From assembly GCF_003862495.1 (NCBI RefSeq), contig NZ_RRCH01000002.1:1-64000 (forward strand): a stretch of 64,000 nt of DNA, read 5' to 3'. Positions 352 through 37,323 of the stretch are shown piece by piece. Origin of the DNA: Halocatena pleomorpha. Its GTDB lineage: Archaea > Halobacteriota > Halobacteria > Halobacteriales > Haloarculaceae. The translations under genes were made by a program, and so were the position numbers. Numbering within the stretch: position 1 is the first letter of the stretch; each line of letters opens with the position of its first letter. The notes under the pieces are model-generated. The model was given only the letters and a program-made list of their open reading frames with translations, searched no databases and was not told where the DNA came from.

Positions 352-543
352 ATGAAAAGAACACTTTCAGCAGCCCGTGAGCGACTGGAAGCGGACATGT
401 ACACGGTTCCTCAACGAAACACCTTGGAAGACAGCTTATCGTCGATTCAAGCGGAGGACTACAGTTGGATGTCGAACCCAGACAACGAGATCCAAAACTC
501 ACCAGAATGGCAAACAATTATTCAAATGTCGAAAAAGGGATGA
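352..543 (+). CDS. Small protein translationally coupled to the restriction-modification gene
   Basis: This 63-residue ORF is acidic in its centre and I do not recognise it. Its support is positional: its TGA at 541-543 overlaps the ATG at 540 of the next gene in an ATGA arrangement, the usual coupling signal in haloarchaea. A purine-rich GGAGGT lies at 321-326, but 26 bases before the ATG, too far for a normal ribosome site, so the message may be leaderless or the start may differ. It has no membrane segment, no cysteine pair and no obvious helix-turn-helix. It could be a regulator or partner of the downstream enzyme; that is inference from position only. Confidence 0.5.
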   Translation: MKRTLSAARERLEADMYTVPQRNTLEDSLSSIQAEDYSWMSNPDNEIQNSPEWQTIIQMSKKG

Positions 544-3500
544 ACAAGTCCGGAGAAAGTGAAGTAAAGGCAGTACCAAATACCAAAATAATGACTAATA
601 CTACGAACTACCCAAGGATGTTGGACGCTATGCAGCAGAGAAATGAAACCGACGGTTATGGCTATGAGTACTTGGTCAACGCTGGGTACTTTGAAGATCC
701 TACGTCGGACACAGTAACATACGACTCGGACCGCGAGATCAAGTATCGATTTAGTATCGAAGGGTCCGTGCGGATTGCGTACTTCGAATTCCCGATGGCA
801 GATGTGCCACAGGACACGCCGAAGAAGATTACTCAGGAGTTGAAGCGGAGAACCCGTTTGCAGTACTTCTGGTTCTTCGACCCAGAAACCCACCGGGTTC
901 ACGTATTCCGTGCGTCCCGTGGGAATTTCCAGTTCATCTATAACCCCAATATTCACACAGGTACGACAGAGGAAAGCAAGCTCGATAAACTGGAACAAGT
1001 CTCCAAAGACATCAACGCCCTCTTTGACTACAAAGATGTCGTTGATCGCTTTTACCGGGAACTATGGGACCACCGCTCTGATCTCGCGAGTGCCCTTACC
1101 ACTGAGAGCGGATACACGCTCAGCAAGCGAGAAGAGCTCCTATCTGCTCAGCGAATTATCGATCGCCTGACTTTCCTCTATTTCCTCGTTGAACGTGGTG
1201 TCGTTATCCCGGTGAATGACGCCAAGGAGATGGTACCGGGCAAAACGGATCACGTGTTCAATACGCTCGTGAACGAGCACGATGACTTCTGGATGCTTCT
1301 TCAAACCGTCTTTTTCGACCGGCTAAACTCCCGAGACGCCGATGACGTCAAATTCACCGGGGCTTACTGGCTCCACATCCCATACCTGAACGGAGGACTC
1401 TTCCAGTCGGCGGATCTCACTACGACGGACGGAACTATCGTCTCCGAGGACGAGGAACTCGTCGTTGAGGACTTTGACTGGGAAGCACTAATCAGCGAAC
1501 TTAACGAGTACAACTGGCTTCTAGACGGCCTGGAGAGAACAGACGAAGACGAAGTAGACACTGTCGGAAACCTCACCCCGACCGTCTTGGGGTACATCTA
1601 CGAAAAGTTCGTCATTTCGGTGAGTAAAGTCGGCGACGACATCCGGCTTAGTGATTTAGATGCTTCCGAACGAAACGACCTGCTTTCCGAAGGCAACAGT
1701 GAGGTCGGTGCGTACTACACTGGCGAAGACATAACCGATTTCAAGGCTCGCCGTGCATTGTGGGAAGGCCTACTGGAGAAGATCGACGAAGAGGAAGCTC
1801 CCATAGCCCTAAGTCCCGATGATCTGTACAAGCCTGGTGAGGATCAAATTGAAGCTATCGAATCCGATCAGAAAGGAGGATTTGATGTCCTTTACGAGGA
1901 GTACGAAGCATCTTCGGAAGTCTTGGAGTACCTTGATTCGAAGCTACAGGAGTTGAGAATCTGTGACCCTGCAGTCGGGAGCGGTTCATTCGCCCTTGCA
2001 GTAGCGAACACACTGTTCGAATGGCGATCGATGTGCCGGCCAGACACCGATGAGTACGTACTCCGTCGGCAGATCATCGCCCAGAACATCTTTGGTGTAG
2101 ATATTCTGGAAGGAGCAACAGAAATCTGTAAACTGCGGCTGTGGCTGTGGCTGATCAGCGCAACCCCAGTAGATACGACCGAAGGTGCTCCTGTAGACGA
2201 ACGTGATGAGATCCCGCCTCTACCGGACATCACGTTCAATATCCGAACTGGAAACAGCCTCCTCGGGTTTACCGAAACCGCTGTTGCGACTGGTCAGCAG
2301 CACACTTTGGGTTTTTCGACGATGAAGGACCAATTGCGACAGTATGGGGAGGATGTTCATGACTACAGAGAATCCACCGACTCCAAGAAAGAGGCGAAGC
2401 GTGAACTCGAACATCGGAACGACGATCTGAAAGAGGACCTCAACGAGTGGTACGCAAAAACTCAAAGCGATTCGAACAACAATCGTCTCACGATTGCTGA
2501 TCACGTCGATAACGTTAGTGCAGCGTGGGAGAGTCTGACTGCGACTCCGCAATCCTCGACAACGCTCAGCGTCAAAATCTCGGACGGAATACCCGAATCG
2601 GTTGATGAGTATTTAGAAAATCAAGGATTTACCACCTACAAATACAAGGCACGGCTGGACCAGCCAACACTCGATAAGCACGGTGTCGAGAAGATCTTCG
2701 ATCGGATCCGAGAACACTTCTCGGATCCTGACGATTGGAGTGTCCTCATCGAACGAGAGTACGCCGGACAGGACTTCCGAGAAGACAAACTCAACGCATG
2801 CCATTGGCCACTGGAATTCCCACTCGTGTTCATGAAAAACGGTGGGTTCGATGTCGTCATCAGCAACCCTCCTTACGGGGCGTCCCTCAGTCCGGAAGAA
2901 GAGCCGTTGTTGAAAAGCGAGAGTAACTATGAGTGTCAAGGGACAAATGACTCTTGTGAGTGGTTCTATGAGCGGGCACTTGATCTTGTTCACGACCAAG
3001 GAGTCGTCTCTTACATCGTCAATAAGAGCATAGCCTTCTACAGCTCGTGGGCCGACATCCGGGAACGGCTGCTAGCTGAAACCGAATTCAAGCACATCCT
3101 CGACGTTGGACTGGGATTCGTCGGGGTAAATCTCGAAACCATCGCGATGATCAACACTCTCAGTAATGACGGTCAATCAACTGTTCCGACAGTCCACCGA
3201 AGCAAGGATCTTCGGAGTACAACTGCAAACCAACCAACACATCTTGGTTGGGTTGACCAAGCGGTCATGATGGACTCGAAGACCATCATTTTCCGACCAA
3301 TAGCTGACGATCAGAGCGATGTCTTAGAATGCCTCCGCTCTCATGACCGCCGTCTTGGTGACGTGATGTCTACTGAGAGTACAACGAGGCAGTTGTACAT
3401 CCCAGACAGCAAAAAGAAAAGGCTTGACGACGGGGATGACCAGTACATCAACAAGAACCCGTGGGTGCAAGAATTCTATCTGAAAGAAATATGTCATAAA

Positions 3501-4196
3501 GACCTCAGTGACTACCGCGACTCCGTTGCCGAATACGCAGTTCCCCGCGTGATGCTGAAAGTGCTCCGGGGGACCCGACTCCGAGCGTGGATTGACGCAG
3601 CTGGTGAAGTCGTGGGTACAGAGAAGCTCGTTAATGTGCCACTCGAAGAGAGTAGTCCAGAAGAGATCGCGTTCGTGTACGCGGCGCTGAACCATCCCTG
3701 TGTGTCCTACTACCTCCAGAAAGCGATTTTCTCCGAAACAACAGAAAGTGCACGAGTGATGGACGGGCAGTACTCGAAGCCGATCCCCATCCCAGAGGTT
3801 TCCTCGACTATCGAAACACCGGTAGCACAGCTTGCATGGGCGCTCACGCTGGCCAAGCAGATGAACCACGACTCCAACCGAGACCTGTCGGATCAGGTAT
3901 CGACCCTCCAGTCCGGTCTGAATGCAATCCTCAGTGCCCTGTATTTAGATGTACAACCAGAGACGGTCAGCCGATGGTGCGCAACTGTGGGCAAAGAAAG
4001 AAAAGAGACCGCATCGGTTCAGGAGTTGTTCAGTGAGTTCTACACCGAGCGGTTCGCTACTCGGAACGGAAGTCCGGAACGGTACTGGGACGACATTGAG
4101 GCAGTAGTGGACGCAGCCACGGAGACAGTCTCACAGTGGGATGTTCAACAAATCTCGGACTCACACGAGATGGAGGTTGTTACAGGAGTCCTATAG
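540..4196 (+). CDS. Eco57I/type IIG-like restriction-modification methyltransferase
   Basis: This is a protein of about 1218 residues with an N6-adenine methyltransferase core. Motif I reads DPAVGSGSF near residue 475, and the catalytic motif reads NPPYG near residue 775 within a DVVISNPPYG context. Size and layout match single-chain restriction-modification enzymes of the Eco57I/type IIG class, in which an N-terminal nuclease region, a methylase core and a C-terminal target-recognition region share one polypeptide. I could not point to a certain PD-(D/E)XK nuclease motif, so cleavage activity is inferred. A BREX PglX-like enzyme is the main alternative, but no other BREX genes are nearby. 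The start at 540 is preferred over 465 because it overlaps the stop of the small upstream gene and follows a purine-rich AAAAAGGG. It lies beside the CRISPR array, so two defence functions adjoin. Confidence 0.85.
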   Translation: MNKSGESEVKAVPNTKIMTNTTNYPRMLDAMQQRNETDGYGYEYLVNAGYFEDPTSDTVTYDSDREIKYRFSIEGSVRIAYFEFPMADVPQDTPKKITQELKRRTRLQYFWFFDPETHRVHVFRASRGNFQFIYNPNIHTGTTEESKLDKLEQVSKDINALFDYKDVVDRFYRELWDHRSDLASALTTESGYTLSKREELLSAQRIIDRLTFLYFLVERGVVIPVNDAKEMVPGKTDHVFNTLVNEHDDFWMLLQTVFFDRLNSRDADDVKFTGAYWLHIPYLNGGLFQSADLTTTDGTIVSEDEELVVEDFDWEALISELNEYNWLLDGLERTDEDEVDTVGNLTPTVLGYIYEKFVISVSKVGDDIRLSDLDASERNDLLSEGNSEVGAYYTGEDITDFKARRALWEGLLEKIDEEEAPIALSPDDLYKPGEDQIEAIESDQKGGFDVLYEEYEASSEVLEYLDSKLQELRICDPAVGSGSFALAVANTLFEWRSMCRPDTDEYVLRRQIIAQNIFGVDILEGATEICKLRLWLWLISATPVDTTEGAPVDERDEIPPLPDITFNIRTGNSLLGFTETAVATGQQHTLGFSTMKDQLRQYGEDVHDYRESTDSKKEAKRELEHRNDDLKEDLNEWYAKTQSDSNNNRLTIADHVDNVSAAWESLTATPQSSTTLSVKISDGIPESVDEYLENQGFTTYKYKARLDQPTLDKHGVEKIFDRIREHFSDPDDWSVLIEREYAGQDFREDKLNACHWPLEFPLVFMKNGGFDVVISNPPYGASLSPEEEPLLKSESNYECQGTNDSCEWFYERALDLVHDQGVVSYIVNKSIAFYSSWADIRERLLAETEFKHILDVGLGFVGVNLETIAMINTLSNDGQSTVPTVHRSKDLRSTTANQPTHLGWVDQAVMMDSKTIIFRPIADDQSDVLECLRSHDRRLGDVMSTESTTRQLYIPDSKKKRLDDGDDQYINKNPWVQEFYLKEICHKDLSDYRDSVAEYAVPRVMLKVLRGTRLRAWIDAAGEVVGTEKLVNVPLEESSPEEIAFVYAALNHPCVSYYLQKAIFSETTESARVMDGQYSKPIPIPEVSSTIETPVAQLAWALTLAKQMNHDSNRDLSDQVSTLQSGLNAILSALYLDVQPETVSRWCATVGKERKETASVQELFSEFYTERFATRNGSPERYWDDIEAVVDAATETVSQWDVQQISDSHEMEVVTGVL

Positions 4197-4269
4197 TCCT
4201 ATACCTGTTATTGAGATATCCTTAAGTCTCACATTCGTCGTGTATATTCATAGACGGAGAAACAGGAGC

Positions 4270-4482
4270 TTCACATGCAAGAGTGGTGTGTAGCCAGAAT
4301 CAGCTGGATAGTTTGACGGCGCCGCTTGGAGAGAAACCCTTGTCTACTATAGACATGAAGGCCTCACATCTATAATACACACCACTGTTACAAGTGAAGC
4401 TGCTCAGGGTACACACCACCGTTGCAAGTGAAGCTACGTCTTCACCCTGTTATCAATACCTTCACTTGCAACGGTGGTGTGT
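4270..4482. repeat. Origin-recognition repeats on the 3' side of orc1/cdc6
   Basis: Four copies of a 22-bp element lie here. Written on one strand, it is TTCACTTGCAAC followed by GGTGGTGTGT. Copies are at 4270-4291 (+, diverged), 4377-4398 (-), 4411-4432 (-) and 4461-4482 (+). The G-rich GTGGTGTGT half is the most conserved, as in archaeal origin recognition boxes bound by Orc1/Cdc6. Copies of the same element lie upstream of the adjacent initiator gene. Direct initiator binding is expected from known archaeal origins; here it is inferred from repeat position. Confidence 0.8.
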
Positions 4483-4487
4483 GGCCA

Positions 4488-5714
4488 TCAAGAAACGTCA
4501 TTCTTCACAGCGAGTCTCTCGATTCGCTGAATTGCTTCATCTACACGAAGAACATCAGCCATAGCATCAATTGCACTGGTAAACGGCACGTTCAGTTCGT
4601 AGCTATAGTAGTTTCCCCGTGATCCACTCCGATTTTCAGATGCTGAGAGAATTCCGAGCATACGTAGTTCGGAAAGGTGATTGTGCATCGATCGCTGCGC
4701 AAGTGAGTCGGTTCCTGCCCGTTCACAGAGATCTGTGTAGTCGTCATACAGCTCACGGGACCGGCATGGAGTTTCGTCTTTTGCTGCTTTCGAGACGACT
4801 GCCAACAAGGCGAGGCGGCCGTGCGTTGTGAGTTCCCGCATTCCCTCTTCAATGCGTTCTTGTTCTAACTTCGCTCGCGCCCGTTCGACGTGAGATTCTT
4901 CGATCTGGTCAGCGTTGTTATTCTCAGCGAGCTCTCCCGCTAAGCGCAGAAGATCGAGCGCCTGTCGAGCACTTCCACTATCTCTCGCAGCAAGTGCAGA
5001 ACAATACTTCAATACTCCTTGACCCACAGCACCTTCTGCGATAGCAATGTCAGCACGTGTTTGCAGAATACTTTCCAATTCAGTGGCGTCATACGGTGAA
5101 AACTGAAGTTCTCGCTCACACAGGGTATCCTGTGCCCGTGGATCCAACTGCTCTCGAAATTTAAAGTCGTTACTAATACCGATCATGCCGACCTTTGTTT
5201 GATCGAGGTAATCGTTTGCTCGTGCTCGTGGAAGTTCGTAGAGTAAGTCATCTCGGCTCCCGATCGAGTCGATTTCGTCGAGGACAACAAGAATAGTTCC
5301 ACCAAGAGTCTCAAGCTCGCGGTAGAGCTTTTTGAAAACGGTTTGCTGGGGATATCCAGTAGAACTGATTTCCCCGCCTGTCGGCCGCAGTTTATTGACA
5401 AGCTCGACAGCAACCTGGTAGGAGGAATTGAGCGATTTGCAGTTGACCGAGATAACGGACAAATCAACATCGTCGTATTCTTTGACATCTCTTTGAAGAA
5501 GGGTAAGAAGATACTCTGTGACAGCAGTTTTTCCGACACCAGGGTGACCGTAGATAAAAATATTGTTCGGTTCCCATCCGTCCATCACGGGTTGGAGAGC
5601 AGTCATATATTCCTCGATTTCAGCATCTCGTTCTTCGATCTGTTCAGGATGATAGGATTCACCAAGAACATCTTTATTTCGAAAGATGTTTTGCTTCCGT
5701 GTGAAGCGGGGCAT
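4488..5714 (-). CDS. orc1/cdc6: Orc1/Cdc6 replication initiator
   Basis: This 408-residue AAA+ ATPase has a Walker A motif (GHPGVGKT, near residue 57) and a Walker B motif (VVLDEID, near residue 140). A C-terminal winged-helix region follows, starting around residue 300. Length and layout are those of haloarchaeal Orc1/Cdc6 proteins, which bind origin recognition boxes and load the replicative helicase. The gene sits between two clusters of 22-bp repeats, the usual initiator-origin linkage in archaea, so it very likely fires the adjacent origin. One box (5781-5802) lies just upstream of the start, so the protein may also repress its own gene; that is inference. Haloarchaea encode many paralogues, so I give no numbered symbol. 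Confidence 0.95.
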   Translation of the reverse strand: MPRFTRKQNIFRNKDVLGESYHPEQIEERDAEIEEYMTALQPVMDGWEPNNIFIYGHPGVGKTAVTEYLLTLLQRDVKEYDDVDLSVISVNCKSLNSSYQVAVELVNKLRPTGGEISSTGYPQQTVFKKLYRELETLGGTILVVLDEIDSIGSRDDLLYELPRARANDYLDQTKVGMIGISNDFKFREQLDPRAQDTLCERELQFSPYDATELESILQTRADIAIAEGAVGQGVLKYCSALAARDSGSARQALDLLRLAGELAENNNADQIEESHVERARAKLEQERIEEGMRELTTHGRLALLAVVSKAAKDETPCRSRELYDDYTDLCERAGTDSLAQRSMHNHLSELRMLGILSASENRSGSRGNYYSYELNVPFTSAIDAMADVLRVDEAIQRIERLAVKNDVS

Positions 5715-25907: not shown

Positions 25908-27755
25908 ATGACTGATCAATTCACTCAATCGTCTATTGGGAGACGCTCCATCCTCAAAACCATCGGAACGACAGGTATACTAGCTGGAGTCGGTGGAGTT
26001 GAGGCAAGCACGAGTTCTACTAGCACCCAGCGCACTGATTCGTTGAGTGCAGTCAATGCTTCGGCACGGTCACTCACGGTCGATGATCCGTGGCAGACCT
26101 ACGAACTCACAGGCCAGTACAGTTCGCCGGTCGTTATCGCCATGCCGCTGTCGTACACTGGTCCAGATCCATGCCACATCCGGCTACAGAACGTTTCCAG
26201 TGAACACTTCGACGCTCGTGTCGAAGAGTGGCGGTATCTAAACGGCGTTCATTACGAAGAAACTGTTGGCAGTTTAGCAATAGAGCCCGGAGAGTACAGC
26301 CTTGACGGTGGGAGCGCTGTCGAGGTGGGGCGTACTGTTGCCAATCACACGTGGTCGACGGTGTCGTTCGATCAGACGTTTGCGACACCACCACTCGTGT
26401 TCTGTCAGGCCGAAACCGTCCAAGGGCCCCAGCCAATGATCACCCGCGTCTCTGACGTTTCGACCGACGGATTTGCCGTGAGAGTGCAGGAAGAAGAAGC
26501 AATCGGGGGCTATCACCGCACCGAGTCGCTCGGTTACGTCGCTATCGAACCCGGTAGTGGCACTCTCAACGGGATGACGTTCGAGGCAGGACGGATGGAT
26601 CTCGAAGAGCAGTGGCGCCAGTTGTCCTTCGACAACACGTACACGAACCCTGTCTTCCTCGCCGGGATGCAGTCGTTCAATGGCCCGAATACTGCCAGTC
26701 TCCGCCACCGAAATCTCTCGACGACCGGTGTTGAGGTGATCGTCCAAGAAGAGCAGAGTCAGGACGATGAGATAAGCCACGTGACCGAGCAGGTGGGCTA
26801 TCTGGTGCTTGAAGCGACCCCCGATGCGGAGTCACCGCACCAGGGTGAGACGATCCCGACCATTCCACACGCGCCGAGCGGAGTGACCCCTCCGACGGGA
26901 CGCAACTTCCGGCCGTCGGCTGCAACGCCCGTGTTGCGTGGAAGCGATGTGACCGACTATGGTGCGGTGGACTACGTGGCTGACCCGTTCCTGTTCGTTG
27001 AGGACGGCACGTGGCACATGTTCTTCGAAATCCTCAACGCGAGTCGGGATGATGACGCGCCGATCGGCCACGCCACCAGCCAGGACGGGATAGACTGGAC
27101 GTACGATCAGGTCGTGATGGCAAACCGGTACCACCAGTCGTTCCCGTTGACGTGGAAACACCGCGGGAGCTACTACATGACGATCTCGTATGGCAAGCGC
27201 GTAGAGCTGTACAAGTCTCGTCAATTCCCAACCAGTTGGCGCTACATCGGCAACGCGATCGACGTCGATTATTACTGTCACGATCCGACGTTCATTCGAT
27301 ACAATGGGCGGTGGTGGCTATTCACCGACCGTGGCAGTCGGAACGTAATGGTGTATCATTCCACAGATCTCGAACGCGAGGGGTGGACGCCACACGAGCA
27401 GAATCCTGTCGTTACTGATCGATTGCAGGCAGGCCGACAGGGTGGCCGACCGATCGTCGTTGACGGTCAGTTGTTCCTCTACTTCCAGGACTGCGTCGAC
27501 AACTACGGCGACGCCATCCGGTGTTATGAGGTGACCGAACTGTCCCCGTCTACGTACGCCGATCAAGAGGTTGCTGGCTCACCTGTGCTCCACGAATTCG
27601 GTACCGGGTGGGCGAACAACGGGATGCACACGTTCGATCCGTGGTGGCGCGGCCCGGAGAAGGGCTGGCGCTGTGCGGTTGATGGCGTCCGTGCACAGGA
27701 ATCGACCGAGGATCTGTGGACAATCGGTATTGTCGATATCCCTCCCACTGGATAG
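25908..27755 (+). CDS. Tat-exported protein: lectin-like repeats plus GH43-like five-bladed propeller
   Basis: This 615-residue protein starts with a Tat signal (GRRSILKTIG, residues 11-20). Residues about 52-303 contain three related beta modules of roughly 80 residues (RSLTVDDPWQTYELTG, then TWSTVSFDQTF and QWRQLSFDNTY starts), resembling H-type lectin folds. Residues about 335-605 form a five-bladed propeller of the GH43/glucosamine inositolphosphorylceramide transferase N-domain type (YVADPFLFVEDGTWHMFFE, CHDPTFIRYNGRWWLF). It probably binds or trims a surface or environmental polysaccharide outside the cell. The lectin-like part recurs at the C-terminus of the 28153 gene product. No partner in the same operon; an AT-rich promoter region precedes it. 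Confidence 0.8.
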   Translation: MTDQFTQSSIGRRSILKTIGTTGILAGVGGVEASTSSTSTQRTDSLSAVNASARSLTVDDPWQTYELTGQYSSPVVIAMPLSYTGPDPCHIRLQNVSSEHFDARVEEWRYLNGVHYEETVGSLAIEPGEYSLDGGSAVEVGRTVANHTWSTVSFDQTFATPPLVFCQAETVQGPQPMITRVSDVSTDGFAVRVQEEEAIGGYHRTESLGYVAIEPGSGTLNGMTFEAGRMDLEEQWRQLSFDNTYTNPVFLAGMQSFNGPNTASLRHRNLSTTGVEVIVQEEQSQDDEISHVTEQVGYLVLEATPDAESPHQGETIPTIPHAPSGVTPPTGRNFRPSAATPVLRGSDVTDYGAVDYVADPFLFVEDGTWHMFFEILNASRDDDAPIGHATSQDGIDWTYDQVVMANRYHQSFPLTWKHRGSYYMTISYGKRVELYKSRQFPTSWRYIGNAIDVDYYCHDPTFIRYNGRWWLFTDRGSRNVMVYHSTDLEREGWTPHEQNPVVTDRLQAGRQGGRPIVVDGQLFLYFQDCVDNYGDAIRCYEVTELSPSTYADQEVAGSPVLHEFGTGWANNGMHTFDPWWRGPEKGWRCAVDGVRAQESTEDLWTIGIVDIPPTG

Positions 27756-28152
27756 TCTCATCGAGTAGTTCGGGACGCCATACGCGGGGATCATTCGTAT
27801 ACTGGTGACCAACGTCGATGTCTTCCGCTTCGATAGGCCGAAGTATCGCTCTCGTTGGCGACAGTGGACGTAGCAGCCGTCTCCATCTCGCTCAGTGAGT
27901 GAAAACGCTGCTGGGGGAGTGAGGATGGGGTCATTCAATACGCGATGTCCTAACTGCTGATTGGTCTGTCGTAGTATTAATGTATATTATATAGTATGAA
28001 AACAACATACTGATATAGAATAGTTTCAAAAATGTTGTAGTACATGAGTGTAGGATGCTGTGATACGTGTGGGATCAAAGAGCGCCATCGGTCTCATTCT
28101 AGCTTGGATATTTCATTACCCCCAGCGTCTCTCGATACAGGGGTCTTATAGC
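27756..28152. other. Intergenic region
   Basis: No gene seen. The frame of the next gene stays open upstream to a GTG at 28060, but the Tat signal begins only at 28153, so I treat this stretch as untranslated. An A/T-rich stretch at 27975-28010 could be its promoter. Confidence 0.45.
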
Positions 28153-30762
28153 ATGTCGGAGTGGACGCAGCCGTATCCGATCGAGCGACGGTCGATTATC
28201 AAGGCTATCGCGGGGAGCGTCGCTACCGGGCTCGGTGCAGGTGAGGCACGCGCCGACTCCACGGGAACACAGCGCACTCGCACGTTGATGGACGGCACCG
28301 ACCAGGAGACGGCTCTCTACATCAACGACTCCGGGATCGACGGCATGACAACGTTCGTCATCGGAGGAATGCACGGCAATGAGGAGGCGGGCTACCTCGC
28401 GGGCGGTGACATCAAAAACTGGGTCCCGTCGGCTGGCACTCTGCTCGTGCTTCCCCGGGCAAACATCGTCGGGGTCAGGGATGGGACGAGAGGCGGACCA
28501 ACCGGCGATCTGAACCGGCAGTTTCCGCTCGAAGAGCACCCGACCACCGACCTGGCGCGAGAGATATGGAACAGCATCACCGAGTACGATCCGGATCTCC
28601 TCATCGATCTGCACGAGTCGGTGGGACGGTACATCGACGGTAGACTCGGCCAGTCGATCGGCTACTCTCCGCTCCGCAACCTCCGCGGTGCAGCTCAGGT
28701 GTCGATCGACGCCATCAACGAATCGATCGATACCCAGAAGAACCACTTCCACCCGCGCTTTCTGCCGAGTCCCGCAGAACCCCCCGACGGCGTGCTCGTC
28801 CAACGGACAGCCTTCGAGTTAGGAATTCCGACGTACATCATCGAAACCTATGATGGTCTCACCCTCTCTGCGCGCGTGCGATGGCAGAAGTCCCTCGTCA
28901 AGCGGCTGCTGGACCTTCGAGGGGCTGAATACGATGCTGACGATCCACGCCACGTGCTTGCTATTGAGGGGTCAGGTACCTTGACGAGTTACACTATCGA
29001 CGTGAGTGGGTCGATCGAAGCGACGGACACTATCGACACCAACGACACAGTCACAGAGACCCACACCGACGGTACCGTGAGTACCAGCATCGACTACTAC
29101 CACTACACTGGCCGGATTACCGCCTTCAATATGACTGACGGCACGTTTGACGACATTACGGTGTACATCGACGGGGTGGAGAAAACCATTACCGAACTCA
29201 CGCCAGAGGCCACGAGTGAGTTGCGGATCACCGGGACAGGTCCCGAGGTAGCGTACCAACTTAGTGTCGACGAACCGTTCACCGCGACGGCCTCGATGGA
29301 GGACAACGATCGTGTCTTCGGGGACCGGGCCTACGGCGTCGTCACAACCGGGACGGACATCTACGAGTACACCCGCGCCGTCGATCGTTTCGACGTGACG
29401 GCGGGTGATGCCGACGACCTCACCCTCGAAGTCGACGGCGACCCAGTAACAGTCGACGACCTCGATGAGAACCCGACGCACGATCTCTGGATTATTGGCA
29501 CTGGCTCCGACGTGCGCTATCGGGTTGCAGTGAGTGGGACCGTCTCCGGCACCGATTCACTCGAATCACACGACGAAGTCACGGATTACACTGTCTCCGG
29601 GAAGGTGGGCAGCCTGAACGACCACGTCCGATTCACCGGAGACATCCTTTCGTTCGAACTCATTGAGGGGAGTGCTGACGATGTCGAGATTCTAGTCGAT
29701 GGGAACGAACAGACGGTTTCGGACCTGAATCCATCCGACGTGCACGAACTGCGCGTATCCGGAACCGGCCCTCGAACGGAGTATACCGTCGGGGTGACTG
29801 ATATCGTGTACCCGACAGCGACGAACGAGGAGTCCGACCGTATTGGGATCGACCGTATCGAGGGAATTGTTCGTGATAAGGATGACACTTACCTGTTCCG
29901 AGGGGAGGTGACCTCGTTCAGAGTCGAAGAGGGATCGGTCAGCGATATCGATGTCTTCATCGACGGACAGCAACAGTCACTCGACGCGTTACATCCCAGC
30001 CAGTCCGAGGTACGAACACTCACTGTCGATGATCCAGGGCAGACCTACGATCTCGCGGGGGACTACCAGGCCCCGGTCGTCATCGCCAACCCACCATCCT
30101 CCAACGGCGATCAACCGTGCCACGTGCGGTTGCGGAACGTCTCCCGTCAGAGCTTCGATGCCCGCATCGAGGAGTGGCTCTACATGAACGATGTCCATTA
30201 CGATGAGACGGTCGGCAGTCTAGCCATGGAAACTGGGAGGCACGAACTGGATGATGGGCGCAGTGCTTCCGCCGGACGGGCCACTGTCGACACTGACTGG
30301 CGGAGCGTCTCGTTCGAGCAACCATTCGAAACGACACCAGTTGTGCTCTGCCAGACGGAAACCGAACAAGGCTGGCACCCCATCGTCACGCGAGTGAGAA
30401 ACGTCTCGCCGGAGGGGTTCGACGTGAGAATTCAGGAAGAAGAGGCCCACGGAACACACTACACGGAGGCACTCGGCTATATCGCCCTCGAATCAGGTGT
30501 AGGCACGCTAGACGGGACGGCGTTTGAGGCGGGACACACAATGTTGGACCACACGTGGAATCGCCTCGCCTTCGATCGAGAGTATTCGAATCCCGTCTTC
30601 CTGGCGGGAATACAGTCTTTTGCCGGGTACAATACGTGTAATCTCCGCCATCGGAACCTGTCGGAGACGGGTGTTGAAGTGACGGTCGAAGAAGAACAAA
30701 GCAGTGACGAAGAGCAAACGCATGTGAACGAGAAGGTGGCGTATCTCGTACTCGAAGAGTAA
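28153..30762 (+). CDS. Tat-exported M14-like zinc peptidase with beta repeats and lectin-like module
   Basis: Starting at ATG 28153, the 869-residue product opens with a Tat signal (IERRSIIKAIAG). Residues about 65-255 form a succinylglutamate desuccinylase/M14-type zinc hydrolase: GGMHGNEE (His74, Glu77), DLNRQFP, DLHES (His154) and a likely catalytic Glu231 in YIIETYDG. Residues about 270-620 carry four copies of a roughly 90-residue beta repeat (TGTGPEVAYQLSV, FRGEV, VFIDG types). Residues about 625-869 match the lectin-like module of the 25908 protein. It may release amino acids from a peptide or glycan conjugate at the cell surface. The target is unknown. Confidence 0.82.
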   Translation: MSEWTQPYPIERRSIIKAIAGSVATGLGAGEARADSTGTQRTRTLMDGTDQETALYINDSGIDGMTTFVIGGMHGNEEAGYLAGGDIKNWVPSAGTLLVLPRANIVGVRDGTRGGPTGDLNRQFPLEEHPTTDLAREIWNSITEYDPDLLIDLHESVGRYIDGRLGQSIGYSPLRNLRGAAQVSIDAINESIDTQKNHFHPRFLPSPAEPPDGVLVQRTAFELGIPTYIIETYDGLTLSARVRWQKSLVKRLLDLRGAEYDADDPRHVLAIEGSGTLTSYTIDVSGSIEATDTIDTNDTVTETHTDGTVSTSIDYYHYTGRITAFNMTDGTFDDITVYIDGVEKTITELTPEATSELRITGTGPEVAYQLSVDEPFTATASMEDNDRVFGDRAYGVVTTGTDIYEYTRAVDRFDVTAGDADDLTLEVDGDPVTVDDLDENPTHDLWIIGTGSDVRYRVAVSGTVSGTDSLESHDEVTDYTVSGKVGSLNDHVRFTGDILSFELIEGSADDVEILVDGNEQTVSDLNPSDVHELRVSGTGPRTEYTVGVTDIVYPTATNEESDRIGIDRIEGIVRDKDDTYLFRGEVTSFRVEEGSVSDIDVFIDGQQQSLDALHPSQSEVRTLTVDDPGQTYDLAGDYQAPVVIANPPSSNGDQPCHVRLRNVSRQSFDARIEEWLYMNDVHYDETVGSLAMETGRHELDDGRSASAGRATVDTDWRSVSFEQPFETTPVVLCQTETEQGWHPIVTRVRNVSPEGFDVRIQEEEAHGTHYTEALGYIALESGVGTLDGTAFEAGHTMLDHTWNRLAFDREYSNPVFLAGIQSFAGYNTCNLRHRNLSETGVEVTVEEEQSSDEEQTHVNEKVAYLVLEE

Positions 30763-31317: not shown

Positions 31318-32994
31318 TTGCAACCAACAGATAAGGAAAAGGAAACTAAACAAGACACACATTGCAATGATAGTGTGAATCGCCGTTCGTATCTGAAGTT
31401 GATCGGTGGAGCAGCTGTTGCGGGAATTGGCGGTGTACCAGCCGTGCGTGGTGCTGATGGATTGCATCGAACACTCACGATCGAAGGGCCGGGAGCAAGC
31501 ACAAATTACGAATTCACGGTTGAGGGAGATTTGGCCAAAAGTACAGCATTCGGTGGCACGATCCATGGTCATGACGAGATTTCGGGGAGTACAGCGTCAG
31601 GCCACGTCGGTGGGGGACGTGACAGCTACACGTTCAGCGGGGAGATCACGTCGTGGTCCGGCGACTACGACGCGCTGACACTCTATCTGAACGGAGAGGA
31701 GCTCAAAAATCTCATCACCATCAAAGGGCGCCCGGACCAGTCGGTCTCCTACCGATTGCGTGTGGATGGAGAGGTGTTGAAAAGCACCGAGTTCGCCGGC
31801 TCGATCAACGACTCCGATGAGATCTCCGGCCGAACCAAAGACTACGGGCTCGATACGAGTATCCGTACTGAGGACGATCTCCGTGGGGAGACCGTCGTGG
31901 AAGGGTCGGTGAGCGGCGGTACGGATAGCTTTCTGTATTCTGGCGATGTTAGCGACCTCACTACCGATGCCGAGCTCGAGGTGTACATCAACAGTGAGTT
32001 AGTGAAATACGAGGAGTTCGAGCGCGATACGATCACGATCGACGGCTGTGGCTGTGAGATCGCCCGTGAGTATTCCTTTACCGTCGAAACCGATGTCGCC
32101 AAAACCGACGCCTACAACGCCTCGATCAACAGTGGCGATACGATCGACGGCAGCGAGGTAACTGGCTCCGTGGTGAGCGGGCGCGACAGCTATGTTTACA
32201 CCGGCGAAATCCAAGCCATCGACATCCCGTCCAGCATCCAAGTGCTCAAAAACGGGACAGAGGTTACCCCCGGTTCGTTACTCGGTGAGAAGAGGTTCCA
32301 ATCAAGGAAGCTTCCGCACACGCTGACGATTAGTATCGATAGACAAGAGCGGGTGGACTACGGCTTTAGCGTCACTGGTGATCTTGCGACCGGCCCGCTC
32401 GGCAATTCAAGCAGTGGTGATCGGGCTGCCAACGGCTACGGCCGCGGTTACGGTGCCAACACCGGTGCGGACGAGTATCTATACTCTGGCGAGCTAGCGA
32501 GCCTCAGCGACTTCACTTGTCTCCAACTGGACGTCGACCATGACTATCAGCAGCTCATCGTTCGGGATCTCACCAACAGTGCGAATCCGCCGTATGGCTA
32601 CGAGATTACGGTCAGCGGGGCACTCTCGAAAGCAGACTCGAACAACAACGCAACGATCGATGGAGGAACTGTCTCTGGGAAGGTGGCTGGAAAGACAGAT
32701 GTTTTCGACTTTACTGGAGAATTGATTGAGGTTATTTTCCCGACCTCGATCAAGGTCAAATTCGAAAGGGACATCAATCAAGCGATTGGTTACAAAAGCT
32801 ATTCCTTAAGATGTCAATATGGAAGCTATCATTACGAAGTGGATATAGATGCATGTACTGAGACGATCGAACGCGGTCACTTCGTATTCAGTGACGGCAC
32901 GAGGATTCCAGTAGCAGCAGAGTTCGTTTCTGAAAACAAAGTTCGATATACCATCGATGGAGAGGAATTCAAACTTGGAGGTGGATGGCCATGA
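31318..32994 (+). CDS. Tat-exported beta-repeat protein
   Basis: This protein of up to 558 residues has a Tat motif (NRRSYLKLIGG). No ATG precedes the signal: TTG at 31318 or GTG about 19 codons later are the possible starts. The mature part has about five repeats of a 90-residue beta unit with the recurring pattern Y-F-V-GDLAKS, GDEISG, SGxVxGGxDSY and YSGEI. This pattern also underlies the middle of the 28153 protein. A GYGRGYG segment interrupts the fourth unit. No catalytic motif is seen; probably a surface or secreted structural or binding protein. It ends in an ATGA overlap with the next gene, suggesting the two products act together. Confidence 0.75.
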   Translation: MQPTDKEKETKQDTHCNDSVNRRSYLKLIGGAAVAGIGGVPAVRGADGLHRTLTIEGPGASTNYEFTVEGDLAKSTAFGGTIHGHDEISGSTASGHVGGGRDSYTFSGEITSWSGDYDALTLYLNGEELKNLITIKGRPDQSVSYRLRVDGEVLKSTEFAGSINDSDEISGRTKDYGLDTSIRTEDDLRGETVVEGSVSGGTDSFLYSGDVSDLTTDAELEVYINSELVKYEEFERDTITIDGCGCEIAREYSFTVETDVAKTDAYNASINSGDTIDGSEVTGSVVSGRDSYVYTGEIQAIDIPSSIQVLKNGTEVTPGSLLGEKRFQSRKLPHTLTISIDRQERVDYGFSVTGDLATGPLGNSSSGDRAANGYGRGYGANTGADEYLYSGELASLSDFTCLQLDVDHDYQQLIVRDLTNSANPPYGYEITVSGALSKADSNNNATIDGGTVSGKVAGKTDVFDFTGELIEVIFPTSIKVKFERDINQAIGYKSYSLRCQYGSYHYEVDIDACTETIERGHFVFSDGTRIPVAAEFVSENKVRYTIDGEEFKLGGGWP

Positions 32995-34190
32995 GTACTA
33001 ACACAGGAAAAGAAACGAAGGGTGTTGGAGGTGGCGGAGACAGTTCAGTCAAGTCAGCCTCAGCAGCTGTACTGGTGTTTGTTGGCGGAAAAGATGAGAA
33101 CGTTGACGACCGGAACAGCGTATTTCCAGATACTTCTCCACCAGTGCTAGGTATGGAGTTGCCTATCGACGACACGATGTTCTACGGCGATGGAATTGGA
33201 GAACTCCCAGAGACGTTGACAGAAGCGGTCGCCGCAGAGAAGAATGTTGATGGTCTTGACGGAACATACAACAAATTTAGGTTCAAGAATTCAGTCCAAA
33301 TATACTACGATACAACGGAAGAAGGGGAAATTAAAAATGGCACGGTCAGAATAACTGTGAATTCCCAAAAAGATGGGGATACAGTGGAAGTTGCTGACAA
33401 CACAAGCGAATCCATAAGAAGCAGCTTCACATCACCGCAAGATCTGTTCTTACCAAACAGCCCAGAACAACCATCCTATACAATACTAGCTGACGATTGG
33501 AAAGACTCGGACATATTCGATCTTCTATTTGGTAGTCAAAAGAAGCGCGCGGCTCCATATCCCCGACATATGGATGCAGAGAAGGATAAATTCCAGTCCC
33601 CAAATAGTGGTTTAGTTGAGGGAATTCGCGTTGCTACTATCTGGGGATCTGCAAATCCGTACACTAAAAAGATGACAAATCCTTCAGAGATACCGTTCCT
33701 TGACGGAGAGGTCCCTGATAACCCTATCATCTATAACTGGATAGAGCTAACGCTACTGACTGACGGAACGACATATGTACGAGTTCCAGACGCAAGCGTA
33801 TTCCCAAAGCATGTTGGCTATCTTCGAAGCCCTCTATCAAATGGTAGAAGCACGAAGCGCACCACAAGCGGTCTTCGGTACATCCTTGATGAGACTGTAA
33901 CGACAGCCGATGATACATACGATGCCGCTATCCGTGAAGATTCCAATAACGTCTGGGATCGATTCAAACAGGAAACTGAACAGAGCTATGTTGTTCCATA
34001 CAAGTCAATAAACAGTATATATCGCTGGTCGTATGACTCAGTCGATTCACCGCTTTATGATCATCCAGTGATGGCATATGGCGAAGCTGATGACGGAAGC
34101 GAACTCGGTCGGGAAGAAGTTCTTGACAAACTTCCAGATAACCCACTGTTCCCAATGCCGAACGATTTCCTTGTTGATACTAGACCCTGA
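32991..34190 (+). CDS. Unknown protein coupled to the exported repeat protein
   Basis: This 399-residue protein matches no family I know. The ATG at 32991 is chosen because a GGAGGTG lies seven bases upstream and because it forms an ATGA overlap with the preceding stop; an in-frame ATG at 32985 is too close to that site. There is no signal peptide, although the first 35 residues are Gly/Ser-rich (GVGGGGDSSVKSAS) followed by AAVLVFVGG. Composition is polar with many Asp, Thr and Asn and few cysteines. The gene is AT-richer than most of the window, a sign of separate origin. Coupling implies a fixed dose relative to the exported partner. Confidence 0.7.
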   Translation: MSTNTGKETKGVGGGGDSSVKSASAAVLVFVGGKDENVDDRNSVFPDTSPPVLGMELPIDDTMFYGDGIGELPETLTEAVAAEKNVDGLDGTYNKFRFKNSVQIYYDTTEEGEIKNGTVRITVNSQKDGDTVEVADNTSESIRSSFTSPQDLFLPNSPEQPSYTILADDWKDSDIFDLLFGSQKKRAAPYPRHMDAEKDKFQSPNSGLVEGIRVATIWGSANPYTKKMTNPSEIPFLDGEVPDNPIIYNWIELTLLTDGTTYVRVPDASVFPKHVGYLRSPLSNGRSTKRTTSGLRYILDETVTTADDTYDAAIREDSNNVWDRFKQETEQSYVVPYKSINSIYRWSYDSVDSPLYDHPVMAYGEADDGSELGREEVLDKLPDNPLFPMPNDFLVDTRP

Positions 34191-35646: not shown

Positions 35647-37323
35647 TTAGCCGATTCCTGTTTCCTCCTTCAACAGCGTCAGCGTGTTGTCGGCCGTCAC
35701 GATTGGCGAGTACTCGTACTCACCGGTCAACTCGACCTGTACGAGCAGGTCCACCGCTCGCCAGATCGAATACAGCAGACAGGCGAACGCGAAGTAGAAG
35801 AACCGCAGCCCGAAATTCTTGGAAGTCGTCGCCGCCATGAAGCGTTTGATCGACCTGTACCCACTCTCGATTTCCCACCTGTAGCCATACTCACTGAGGA
35901 AGCCACTGCCGCGGTTGGACATGAACACCGAGTACTGCCGATGATCGTCGTGCTCTGAGTCCTCTTTCCGGCGATAGATCAGCGTCGTCTCGTGCCATTT
36001 GTTCTTGCCGAGGTGGAGCTTCCGGTCGGTCTCGTAGCGGTCCTGACCCCGTTGGAGCAACCGTTTGGCCTGGGCTTTCTCACTGGTCTGCATCCGCTTC
36101 GGAACGACGTAGAAAAGCCCACGCTGGCTGATCATCTCCAGAAGGTGCTGGCTATCGAACTCCCGGTCCATCAGCACGTTATCGACGTGAACGAGGTCCT
36201 CAGCAGAGTTGAGCAAATCCTCGACGATCTCCTTGCATGACTCTCCTTTCCGTACCGGACGGGCATCAAGGACGAGCGGGACGGCGTTCCCGACCAACTG
36301 GACTGTCGCCCACTGGTAGGCGTACTCGTCGGTCTGTTCTTTCGTCCCGATGATCTCGTCCTCGTGGCCCGTCCTATCGCCCGTGAAGGGGTCGGCTTCA
36401 GTGATGTCGATAGCGACGATGCCTGCGCGGAAGAATTCCTCTGTCTCTGCGACCTCGTCGATGAGTTGCCGGATCGCCTGTCGGTACATCTCGCGAATCT
36501 GCTCGATAGAGAGGTCGCGGATGTGGTCGCGATGAGCGTGTCCGAGTGGTGTTCGCTTCCGTGTTGACTCGTGGATGAAGCTGCGAGCGCCATCGTTGGC
36601 GGCCAAGTTCTCACGAAGGCCGAGATAGGTCTGTAAGCCCCAGTAGGCATTCTCGTGAATCTCACAGTTCTCATCCTGGTCGAGCGAGAACGCGGGAAAG
36701 ACGACACGACTGACATGATCAGTGATCGTCTTAGCATTGTCGAGGATGGCTCGGTTATCCGGCTTCGATTCGTCTACGTCGTTACCCCGAAGCGGAAGGC
36801 TCTGTTCTGGTTCGCGCGGGACAGCGACATCCGCGTTTTGTGCTTTGACGAGGATCGTTCGAGCAGCTTTCTCGACTGTCTCACGCAGGTCTCTCGTGAA
36901 ACGCTTGTTCCAGCTACGCCACAGTGTCGATTGGTCAGGAACGGTCTCCAACCCCAAGCACTCACGAAGCGCGGGGTGGCTCTCGAGGTACTCGATGAGT
37001 GCTGTCTCGTGCACCCACCCGTGGAGCTCTTTCAGCAAGAACACCCGGAAGAGGGTGTCTATTTTGTAGCGTGTCGAACCCCCGTAGCGGTCATGGGCTT
37101 CGAATCGGAAGTAGGTCAGCGGAAGTTCGCAGACGAACTGCTCAACCGAGTCGTGACTCGGATGGGTGAACCAGACTCCCGAGACGACTCGAACGTCCGA
37201 TTCTAATCCACCAAGTGAGGTGCAATCGTACAGCGGTGTTGAATTATATATGGGCCATTCGATATGCGACTGGTATGCAATCTGGCGAAAGACACTACGC
37301 TTGGATTCACACGTTGTAGTCAC
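35647..37323 (-). CDS. IS4-superfamily DDE transposase
   Basis: This 558-residue transposase is apparently intact. The DDE triad is visible as VAIDITEADP, VLMDREFDSQ and YRWEIESGYRSIKRF, the last followed by the hydrophobic FFYFAFACLLYS segment. Cut-and-paste transposition is the family activity. Fragments of relatives occur at 13371 and 42646, and more distant relatives at 39374 and 61943. I could not fix the terminal inverted repeats by eye, so element ends are not given. Confidence 0.88.
   Translation of the reverse strand: MTTTCESKRSVFRQIAYQSHIEWPIYNSTPLYDCTSLGGLESDVRVVSGVWFTHPSHDSVEQFVCELPLTYFRFEAHDRYGGSTRYKIDTLFRVFLLKELHGWVHETALIEYLESHPALRECLGLETVPDQSTLWRSWNKRFTRDLRETVEKAARTILVKAQNADVAVPREPEQSLPLRGNDVDESKPDNRAILDNAKTITDHVSRVVFPAFSLDQDENCEIHENAYWGLQTYLGLRENLAANDGARSFIHESTRKRTPLGHAHRDHIRDLSIEQIREMYRQAIRQLIDEVAETEEFFRAGIVAIDITEADPFTGDRTGHEDEIIGTKEQTDEYAYQWATVQLVGNAVPLVLDARPVRKGESCKEIVEDLLNSAEDLVHVDNVLMDREFDSQHLLEMISQRGLFYVVPKRMQTSEKAQAKRLLQRGQDRYETDRKLHLGKNKWHETTLIYRRKEDSEHDDHRQYSVFMSNRGSGFLSEYGYRWEIESGYRSIKRFMAATTSKNFGLRFFYFAFACLLYSIWRAVDLLVQVELTGEYEYSPIVTADNTLTLLKEETGIG

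Follow-up and report, generated by a model that had tools for sequence, protein, structure and literature searches.

H-type lectins (Pfam PF09458), which include Helix pomatia agglutinin, discoidin I/II, and SLL-2, carry a single lectin domain per chain and are assembled from separate chains. In the Helix agglutinin, GalNAc is bound by an Arg of one chain together with a Trp/His loop of the next. Jelly rolls also form the R-pyocin foot, the gp53-type tail fibres, and the C-terminal domain of the LKA1 tailspike, all of which are trimeric and sited on surface-seeking fibres. PMC6116203 and PMC6363177 present folds of this kind as trimeric, with surface polysaccharide as their known or presumed ligand, and the former gives the pyocin relatives a negatively charged, metal-holding groove. 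PMC5701251 pairs the jelly roll of the LKA1 tailspike with a beta-helix lyase, and it assigns a jelly roll of the same fold in Tk-SP to stability, not to sugar binding. Finally, the C-terminal domain of PCSK9 is described in PMC10772138 as a one-chain body with three beta modules behind a subtilase.

The module examined here belongs to the H-type lectin family, which is already known; what is new is its three-unit, single-chain build. Among the open-access papers listed in our literature searches, none has a title or abstract opening that describes such a module in archaea or bacteria. Whereas H-type lectins are separate chains, this module comprises three diverged unit types on one chain and in a fixed cyclic order. 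Its units resemble the jelly rolls of the R-pyocin foot, gp53, and the LKA1 tailspike, but those are homotrimers of chains, unlike the three units on one chain found here.

Two adjacent genes that share a lectin module

Two copies of the module are encoded in a stretch of 64,000 nucleotides from Halocatena pleomorpha (hereafter “the window”). They lie in proteins A and B, the products of adjacent genes on the + strand that both carry Tat-type signals. The features of this region are as follows.

25908..27755, + strand: protein A, 615 aa, with a Tat-type signal, a three-unit H-type lectin module, and a GH32/GINT1-like beta-propeller (ORF, Pfam)
26061..26816, + strand: module in A, residues 52-303 (BLASTP to B; AF2 model)
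26076..26312, + strand: unit 1 of A's module, with the EEWRYLNGVH loop (unit profile)
26328..26576, + strand: unit 2 of A's module (unit profile; Pfam H_lectin match at residues 150-195)
26586..26819, + strand: unit 3 of A's module (unit profile)
26922..27581, + strand: propeller of A, GINT1_N/GH32-like (Pfam PF24793, residues 339-558, E 2.4e-33)
28153..30762, + strand: protein B, 869 aa, with a Tat-type signal, an AstE/AspA hydrolase, four repeats, and the module (ORF, start region, Pfam)
28342..28617, + strand: Pfam-matched catalytic core of B's AstE/AspA (M14-clan) enzyme (PF24827, 30.1 bits, cut-off 25)
28951..30003, + strand: four repeats between B's enzyme and module (BLASTP E 3.8e-10 to the 31318-32994 protein; number by eye)
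30001..30759, + strand: module in B, residues 648-899 in the 900-aa numbering (BLASTP, unit profile, Pfam H_lectin 34.8 bits)
30016-30258, 30271-30519, and 30532-30759, + strand: units of B's module (unit profile, whose row for unit 3 overruns the stop codon, to 30768)
31318..32994, + strand: adjoining Tat-type protein with repeats resembling B's middle part (BLASTP to B, E 3.8e-10)

By BLASTP, residues 41-302 of A and 639-899 of B are identical at 153/262 positions (58%, E 3e-94). An earlier reading of the sequence alone had placed a shared block at opposite ends of the two proteins. The places it gave are right, N-terminal in A and C-terminal in B, and the block itself stands, with its size corrected from about 245 to about 252 residues. 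That reading had also divided the block into three units, and these units are homologous, as an offset match (A 162-303 versus B 672-812, E 4e-18, BLASTP) reveals; a unit profile places three of them in each protein. The description “lectin-like” is borne out as well, given that both copies exceed the cut-off of 24 bits for the Pfam H-type lectin domain (30.9 bits in A and 34.8 bits in B), with the best-matching stretch being one of the three units. Likewise, the expectation that A and B are exported agrees with the Tat-type motifs that can be read by eye in both, GRRSILK in A, where the module follows next, and ERRSIIK in B.

We aligned 87 modules (A and B plus 85 start-to-end profile copies above 100 bits, a selection that omits permuted, partial, and weaker copies). 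A strand-4 Arg is kept in 83, 86, and 86 of the 87 rows in units 1, 2, and 3, respectively, and the loop that joins strands 5 and 6 keeps a His in 87, 85, and 84 rows. Both residues are present in all three units of 78/87 modules. By analogy with the agglutinin, these per-unit Arg and His residues would fit the binding of Gal/GalNAc in clefts between units. The loop Trp, in contrast to H-type lectins, is confined to unit 1 (87/87), and the same position is mostly Glu in unit 2 and Gln in unit 3.

The propeller of A scores 115.9 bits against GINT1_N (PF24793; cut-off 27), and the PDB hits of its family profile include GH32 chains (E 7.1e-5) and a 1,2-beta-oligomannan phosphorylase (E 8.5e-4). 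These matches sustain the earlier impression of a sugar-active-looking propeller. The likeness to GH32/GINT1_N-type propellers has its bounds, however: the Glyco_hydro_32N score of A (21.3 bits) lies under the cut-off of 22.1. An AF2 model of the propeller alone is poor (pLDDT 51.5). Relatives of the propeller occur in 66/392 genomes of the order, and among the best 20 propeller loci, including that of the window, five carry the module. A second A-like propeller (L177:4020-6929, G000:C61) lacks the module. It adjoins a protein that resembles a NodB-type deacetylase by eye and that has no Pfam match up to E 0.001.

Protein B most likely starts at the ATG at 28153 rather than at the GTG at 28060, which would give 900 aa. 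The sequence-only reading had called its enzyme M14-like; the M14 clan is confirmed, and the type is more exactly AstE/AspA. Residues H74, E77, N121, R122, H154, and E231 (869-aa numbering) are invariant in 7/7 aligned sequences, and by analogy they correspond to the H/E/H zinc ligands, the Arg, and the catalytic Glu of an AstE/AspA hydrolase of the M14 clan. A conserved IET motif lies beyond the core that Pfam matches. In the PDB, the hydrolase profile finds chains 4wcm (E 3.2e-12) and 4q6m (E 7.2e-11), which we take to be Helicobacter Csd proteins. The M99 family (PF17033) is above cut-off in three relatives (L054, L063, and L067) and was not reported for B. Thus, B has PF24827 and the HxxE, NR, H, and E motifs of AstE/AspA and M99 zinc hydrolases, but it differs from them in bearing a Tat-type signal, fused repeats, and a lectin. 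The repeat region matches RodZ_C (PF13464) at 25 bits, with a cut-off of 23.9.

The adjoining repeat protein (31318-32994) has no match to the lectin module or to any Pfam or NCBIfam family. Its 3' end is overlapped by a gene for a 401-aa protein (32985-34190) that likewise matched no Pfam or NCBIfam family. Over its first 2054 bases, the A-B stretch matches a Halocatena salina plasmid at 93% DNA identity. The H. salina orthologue of A is already annotated as an H-type lectin domain-containing protein, and its annotated neighbours differ from those in the window. Elsewhere in the window are an Eco57I-type DNA methylase and a Cdc6/Orc1 gene (465-5714) and a transposase (35647-37323). With such genes, this contig could belong to a plasmid or another accessory replicon; the H. 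salina orthologue of A is itself on a plasmid. The genome carries five copies of the module. Aside from those in A and B, one adjoins a beta-helix (L009), another belongs to a protein that matched no Pfam family up to E 0.01 (L008), and the last stands alone after a Tat-type signal (L010).

Fold of the module and the number of its units

Structure prediction and a fold search, which the sequence-only reading had proposed as a check, returned a confident model and a lectin-type jelly-roll unit. The AF2 model, built from the 87-module alignment, has a pLDDT of 95.9 and a pTM of 0.93 and implies that the module is one compact body; units 1 and 2 have 7 strands each, and unit 3 has 6. A fold search with the model found counterparts of a single unit in Helix agglutinins, discoidin I/II, SLL-2, R-pyocin feet, gp53, and the LKA1 tailspike end. 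Their Z scores of 4.6-6.1 should be read with the tool's caution that Z < 8 may reflect no more than a common arrangement. The rmsd of these matches is 2.0-3.4 A, and the jelly-roll fold occupies about the first 14-15 rows of the result. Entries 2ccv, 2ce6, 2cgy, 4q56, 2vm9, and 2w94 match over 76-84 residues at Z 4.8-5.6 and rmsd 2.0-2.9 A. As modeled, then, the unit is a jelly-roll beta-sandwich like that of Helix agglutinin and discoidin. PDB sequence searches with A's module, the module profile, and the unit profile found no H-type lectin chain (up to E 10 for the profiles), and kinship to the solved lectins thus rests on Pfam and on folds.

The whole module was also compared with larger bodies. 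A separately predicted viral model of 784 residues, which from its length and content is probably the first half of gp7 of HRTV-25, superimposes on it with E 8.7e-14, TM 0.86, rmsd 2.7 A, and 22% identity. By comparison, the PCSK9 C-terminal domain matches weakly, at Z 2.8-4.1 over 130-186 residues with an rmsd of 4.8-5.5 A. This match alone proves little, because 7byf_F, another kind of chain from a Rae1 complex, covers model residues 3-252 at Z 3.8. Moreover, PCSK9 is Cys-rich and is absent from the matches of the module and unit profiles up to E 10. Our searches turned up no H-type lectin with three units on one chain among solved structures. A coupling analysis of contacts between units, on 87 rows (effective number 73), gave no clear result.

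Because the relatives of this fold act as trimers, the module is best read as a single-chain pseudo-trimer, and the number of units per protein bears on this reading. By scanning for the unit-1 motif in one genome per species, we found 118 hits, the best 80 of which correspond to 78 loci that span haloarchaea, other archaea, and several bacterial phyla. The 81 proteins at these loci contain three units (63 proteins), six (15), or nine (3), and never any other number. All 225 successive pairs of units (225/225) follow the cycle 1-2-3-1, with the first unit being unit 1 in 71 proteins and unit 3 in 10. Unit types were assigned with a margin of at least 19.8 bits over 306 units. This sample favours complete modules, because hits were found by a motif and limited to the best 80 of 118, the unit profiles were derived from the same modules that were counted, and related proteins are not independent.

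A second, overlapping set was collected by unit profile. It comprises 30 loci and 31 frames with a unit above 25 bits, nine of which run off the stretch. Among the 22 complete frames, 20 have three or six units, and the other two, with one and two units, share a single locus and sum to three. Haladaptatus caseinilyticus has two complete frames of six units each and a third frame, ended by the stretch, that shows two. One of the nine frames that run off, a metalloprotease of genome G209, was initially read as 2-3-1-2, but in its full frame the last part of its unit 2 (8.9 bits) precedes units 3 and 1 and the first part (63.5 bits) follows them, with the break at model position 63. Since unit 2 is split between both ends, this protein has three units in all. 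The permuted module lies within a 1495-aa frame (L212, G209:C1:1323500-1333000) whose HEYAH motif marks it as a metalloprotease by eye.

Per genome, the number of matches is a multiple of three in 41/48 genomes with fewer than 13 matches, the other 7 having 1, 1, 2, 4, 8, 10, and 10; a further seven genomes reached the scoring limit of 13 and were left out of this count. Searches within the genus revealed incomplete copies, namely, a frame of 192 aa that encodes roughly two units, a copy spread over two frames, and two short remnants. These and the genome-level exceptions may be copies that have decayed or that score weakly. A closed ring of three would explain why intact proteins carry units in threes, and a linear string does not predict such counts. 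We infer an exact three-fold symmetry from two structure predictions, the weak PCSK9 match, and this counting rule.

Single units also exist. In two genomes of another family (L015:2-1692 and L019:1-1692), a zinc carboxypeptidase M14 gene is immediately followed by a gene with one H-type lectin-like unit. These units score 23.5 and 22.4 bits, under the cut-off of 24, although the genome search gave them 26 and 24 bits. A trimer of such units would require separate chains.

Partner proteins and the pairing of A and B

Partners were surveyed in the flanks of the 81 proteins (from the best 80 of 118 hits), which gave 88 segments of at least 90 aa that were grouped into BLAST clusters; cluster members without a Pfam scan were assigned by their cluster. 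The commonest enzyme partner is a protease of the subtilase type rather than a carbohydrase (cluster 0, 17 proteins; all 5 of the 17 scanned by Pfam are subtilases). Next is a beta-helix-type cluster of 15 proteins, of which Pfam was run on two and identified Beta_helix in one (L058) and not in the other. AstE-type partners number five within a cluster of eight, and Pfam was run on all five. Three partners are GINT1_N-type propellers, assigned without Pfam from alignments to A at 78-84%. There are also a CAP cluster (Pfam on 2/3) and a Hint cluster (Pfam on 1/4), along with single or paired partners that include a polysaccharide deacetylase (L066), GH9 (L125), CBM6, CBM60, zincin-type metalloproteases, an endonuclease/exonuclease/phosphatase domain, and G8/CEMIP. 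A GH26 partner at a separate locus (L017) is barely above its cut-off (20.4 versus 20.2 bits). In the sense of CAZy, the module is thus a non-catalytic module fused to carbohydrate-active enzymes (GH9, GH26, and polysaccharide deacetylase), and it is fused to proteases, CAP, and Hint as well. Units of any kind were matched in 55/392 genomes of the order.

No relative emerged from two viral-contig scans. Searching phage records with tblastn identified one virus, Halorubrum tailed virus 25 (HRTV-25), in two records. Its gp7 (L213:2605-7314; 1569 aa) is annotated as a laminin G domain protein and is encoded beside a BppU-type gene. The N-terminal part of gp7 has the same kind of units, two by profile and a third by eye, and their place beside a BppU-type gene fits recognition of a haloarchaeal surface.

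These partners bear on whether the fold is used for sugar binding at all. The module could instead be a protein-protein, metal, or stability module with a lectin fold, like the PCSK9 C-terminal domain or the Tk-SP jelly roll. Its commonest partners are subtilases, and the 17 cluster-0 proteins recall PCSK9 in placing three beta modules with a subtilase. The weak whole-module match to PCSK9 points the same way, as do several of the most conserved residues, which are acidic or His, and the negative, metal-holding groove of the pyocin relatives (PMC6116203). However, the Pfam family is a lectin family, the module is joined to carbohydrate-active partners and CBMs (CBM6, CBM60, GH9, GH26, and polysaccharide deacetylase), and its units occur in a protein of a haloarchaeal virus, next to a gene annotated as BppU-type. 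We consider this alternative unlikely. The 15-protein beta-helix cluster (Beta_helix by Pfam in L058) provides a further likeness, in this case to the LKA1 tailspike.

The sequence-only reading had proposed that the module marks A and B as one undescribed system, in which two dedicated enzymes with one module act on one glycan or glycopeptide target. The genes are adjacent, on the same strand, and both Tat-type, and their modules are closely related: a tree of 49 chosen module rows (midpoint root for drawing only) places A, B, and their nearest kin in a supported group of six rows (98/88). But the pairing is not conserved, since A-type genes with the module are present in 6/7 genomes of the genus (two of which have hits at the same contig C1 coordinates and may share one chromosome) and a B-like enzyme with the module is present in 2 (G000 and G227) of the 6 searched for the enzyme. 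In addition, the module is present on many other proteins. Actinarchaeum has its relatives of A and B on different chromosomes (L052 and L053), and the nearest relative of B's catalytic domain elsewhere (G336, L128; 72% identical) keeps the repeats and lacks the module. A dedicated system is therefore quite improbable. A trio of genes, for which that reading had suggested a search, is not conserved where examined and was rejected as a unit, given the different neighbours in H. salina, the separate Actinarchaeum replicons, and the G336 relative without the module.

What stands in place of that proposal is a module of a known family (PF09458) on many unrelated exported partners in haloarchaea and bacteria. 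The breadth across unrelated proteins that had been named beforehand as evidence against the proposal was thus found in part. Because the partners are varied and exported, A and B are not a private pair. Both enzyme kinds also occur without the module, and relatives of B's enzyme are present in 101/392 genomes of the order. Conversely, a copy in YIM A00010 (L051) keeps the repeats and the module, and its catalytic domain was not found in frames of at least 120 aa. A common target of A and B is nevertheless possible, judging from how closely their modules are related.

The tree also suggests where A's module came from. The four modules linked to propellers group together in a clade (96/83) nested in an otherwise AstE-linked set of 12 rows (8 AstE and 4 propeller) whose outermost node is weak (81/58); the row for L051 is labelled AstE even though its frame is without the catalytic domain. 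If the root lies outside the 12-row set, as drawn by midpoint, A's module derives from an AstE-type protein.

A probable targeting role for the module

We consider it probable that the module is a single-chain, pseudo-trimeric H-type lectin that serves as a targeting module. In this reading, three jelly-roll units like those of Helix pomatia agglutinin and discoidin would be fused head to tail and closed into a three-fold body. After leaving the cell by the Tat route, as the signal sequences suggest, the protein would bind a surface or extracellular glycan in multivalent fashion through up to three clefts between units. The fused enzyme would thereby be held at its substrate or at the surface of a cell, and its local concentration at the substrate would be raised. 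Both sugar binding and this surface-holding purpose are presumptive, and any particular ligand, such as the galacto-type or N-acetylated sugar suggested by analogy, is tentative at best. Because the module is common to unlike proteins and is found at either end of them, it appears to be a cassette and not the signature of a single pathway. Targeting, the role offered by the sequence-only reading, is still the most likely one.

As a special case, the module might anchor proteins to the S-layer or exopolysaccharide of the producer itself, and it would then be uninformative about the substrate. A simple hydropathy scan of A and B revealed no strong membrane segment (their best means over 19 residues are 1.1 and 1.3), and position relative to the enzyme seems indifferent, because the module precedes the enzyme in A and follows it in B. 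On the other hand, the module is also found in bacteria, which have different envelopes, and other haloarchaeal anchors exist, such as the lipobox and PGF-CTERM. We regard self-anchoring as possible but somewhat doubtful.

A broader extension of the targeting reading, which we consider distinctly unlikely, is that permutable one-chain lectin heterotrimers are a general aiming device, with which haloarchaeal hydrolases are directed at the envelopes of other cells and a tailed virus at its host, and to which PCSK9 is convergent or very remote kin. The arsenal would cover subtilases, the AstE/M99-like carboxypeptidase, the deacetylase, the beta-helix lyase, and the propeller enzyme. A link to the archaeal peptidoglycan hydrolases that kill bacteria is speculation; the main text of PMC12352652, on archaeal peptidoglycan hydrolases, does not contain “M14” or “lectin”.

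Known H-type lectins, like their phage relatives, assemble from separate chains. The module would exemplify a homotrimer turned into a one-chain heterotrimer, in which units come in multiples of three (in the 81 proteins counted) and circular permutation is tolerated, once even in the middle of a unit. As a scaffold, it would offer three sites, each of which could be tuned separately. Finally, the sugar it binds would name the surface that is targeted by secreted haloarchaeal enzymes.
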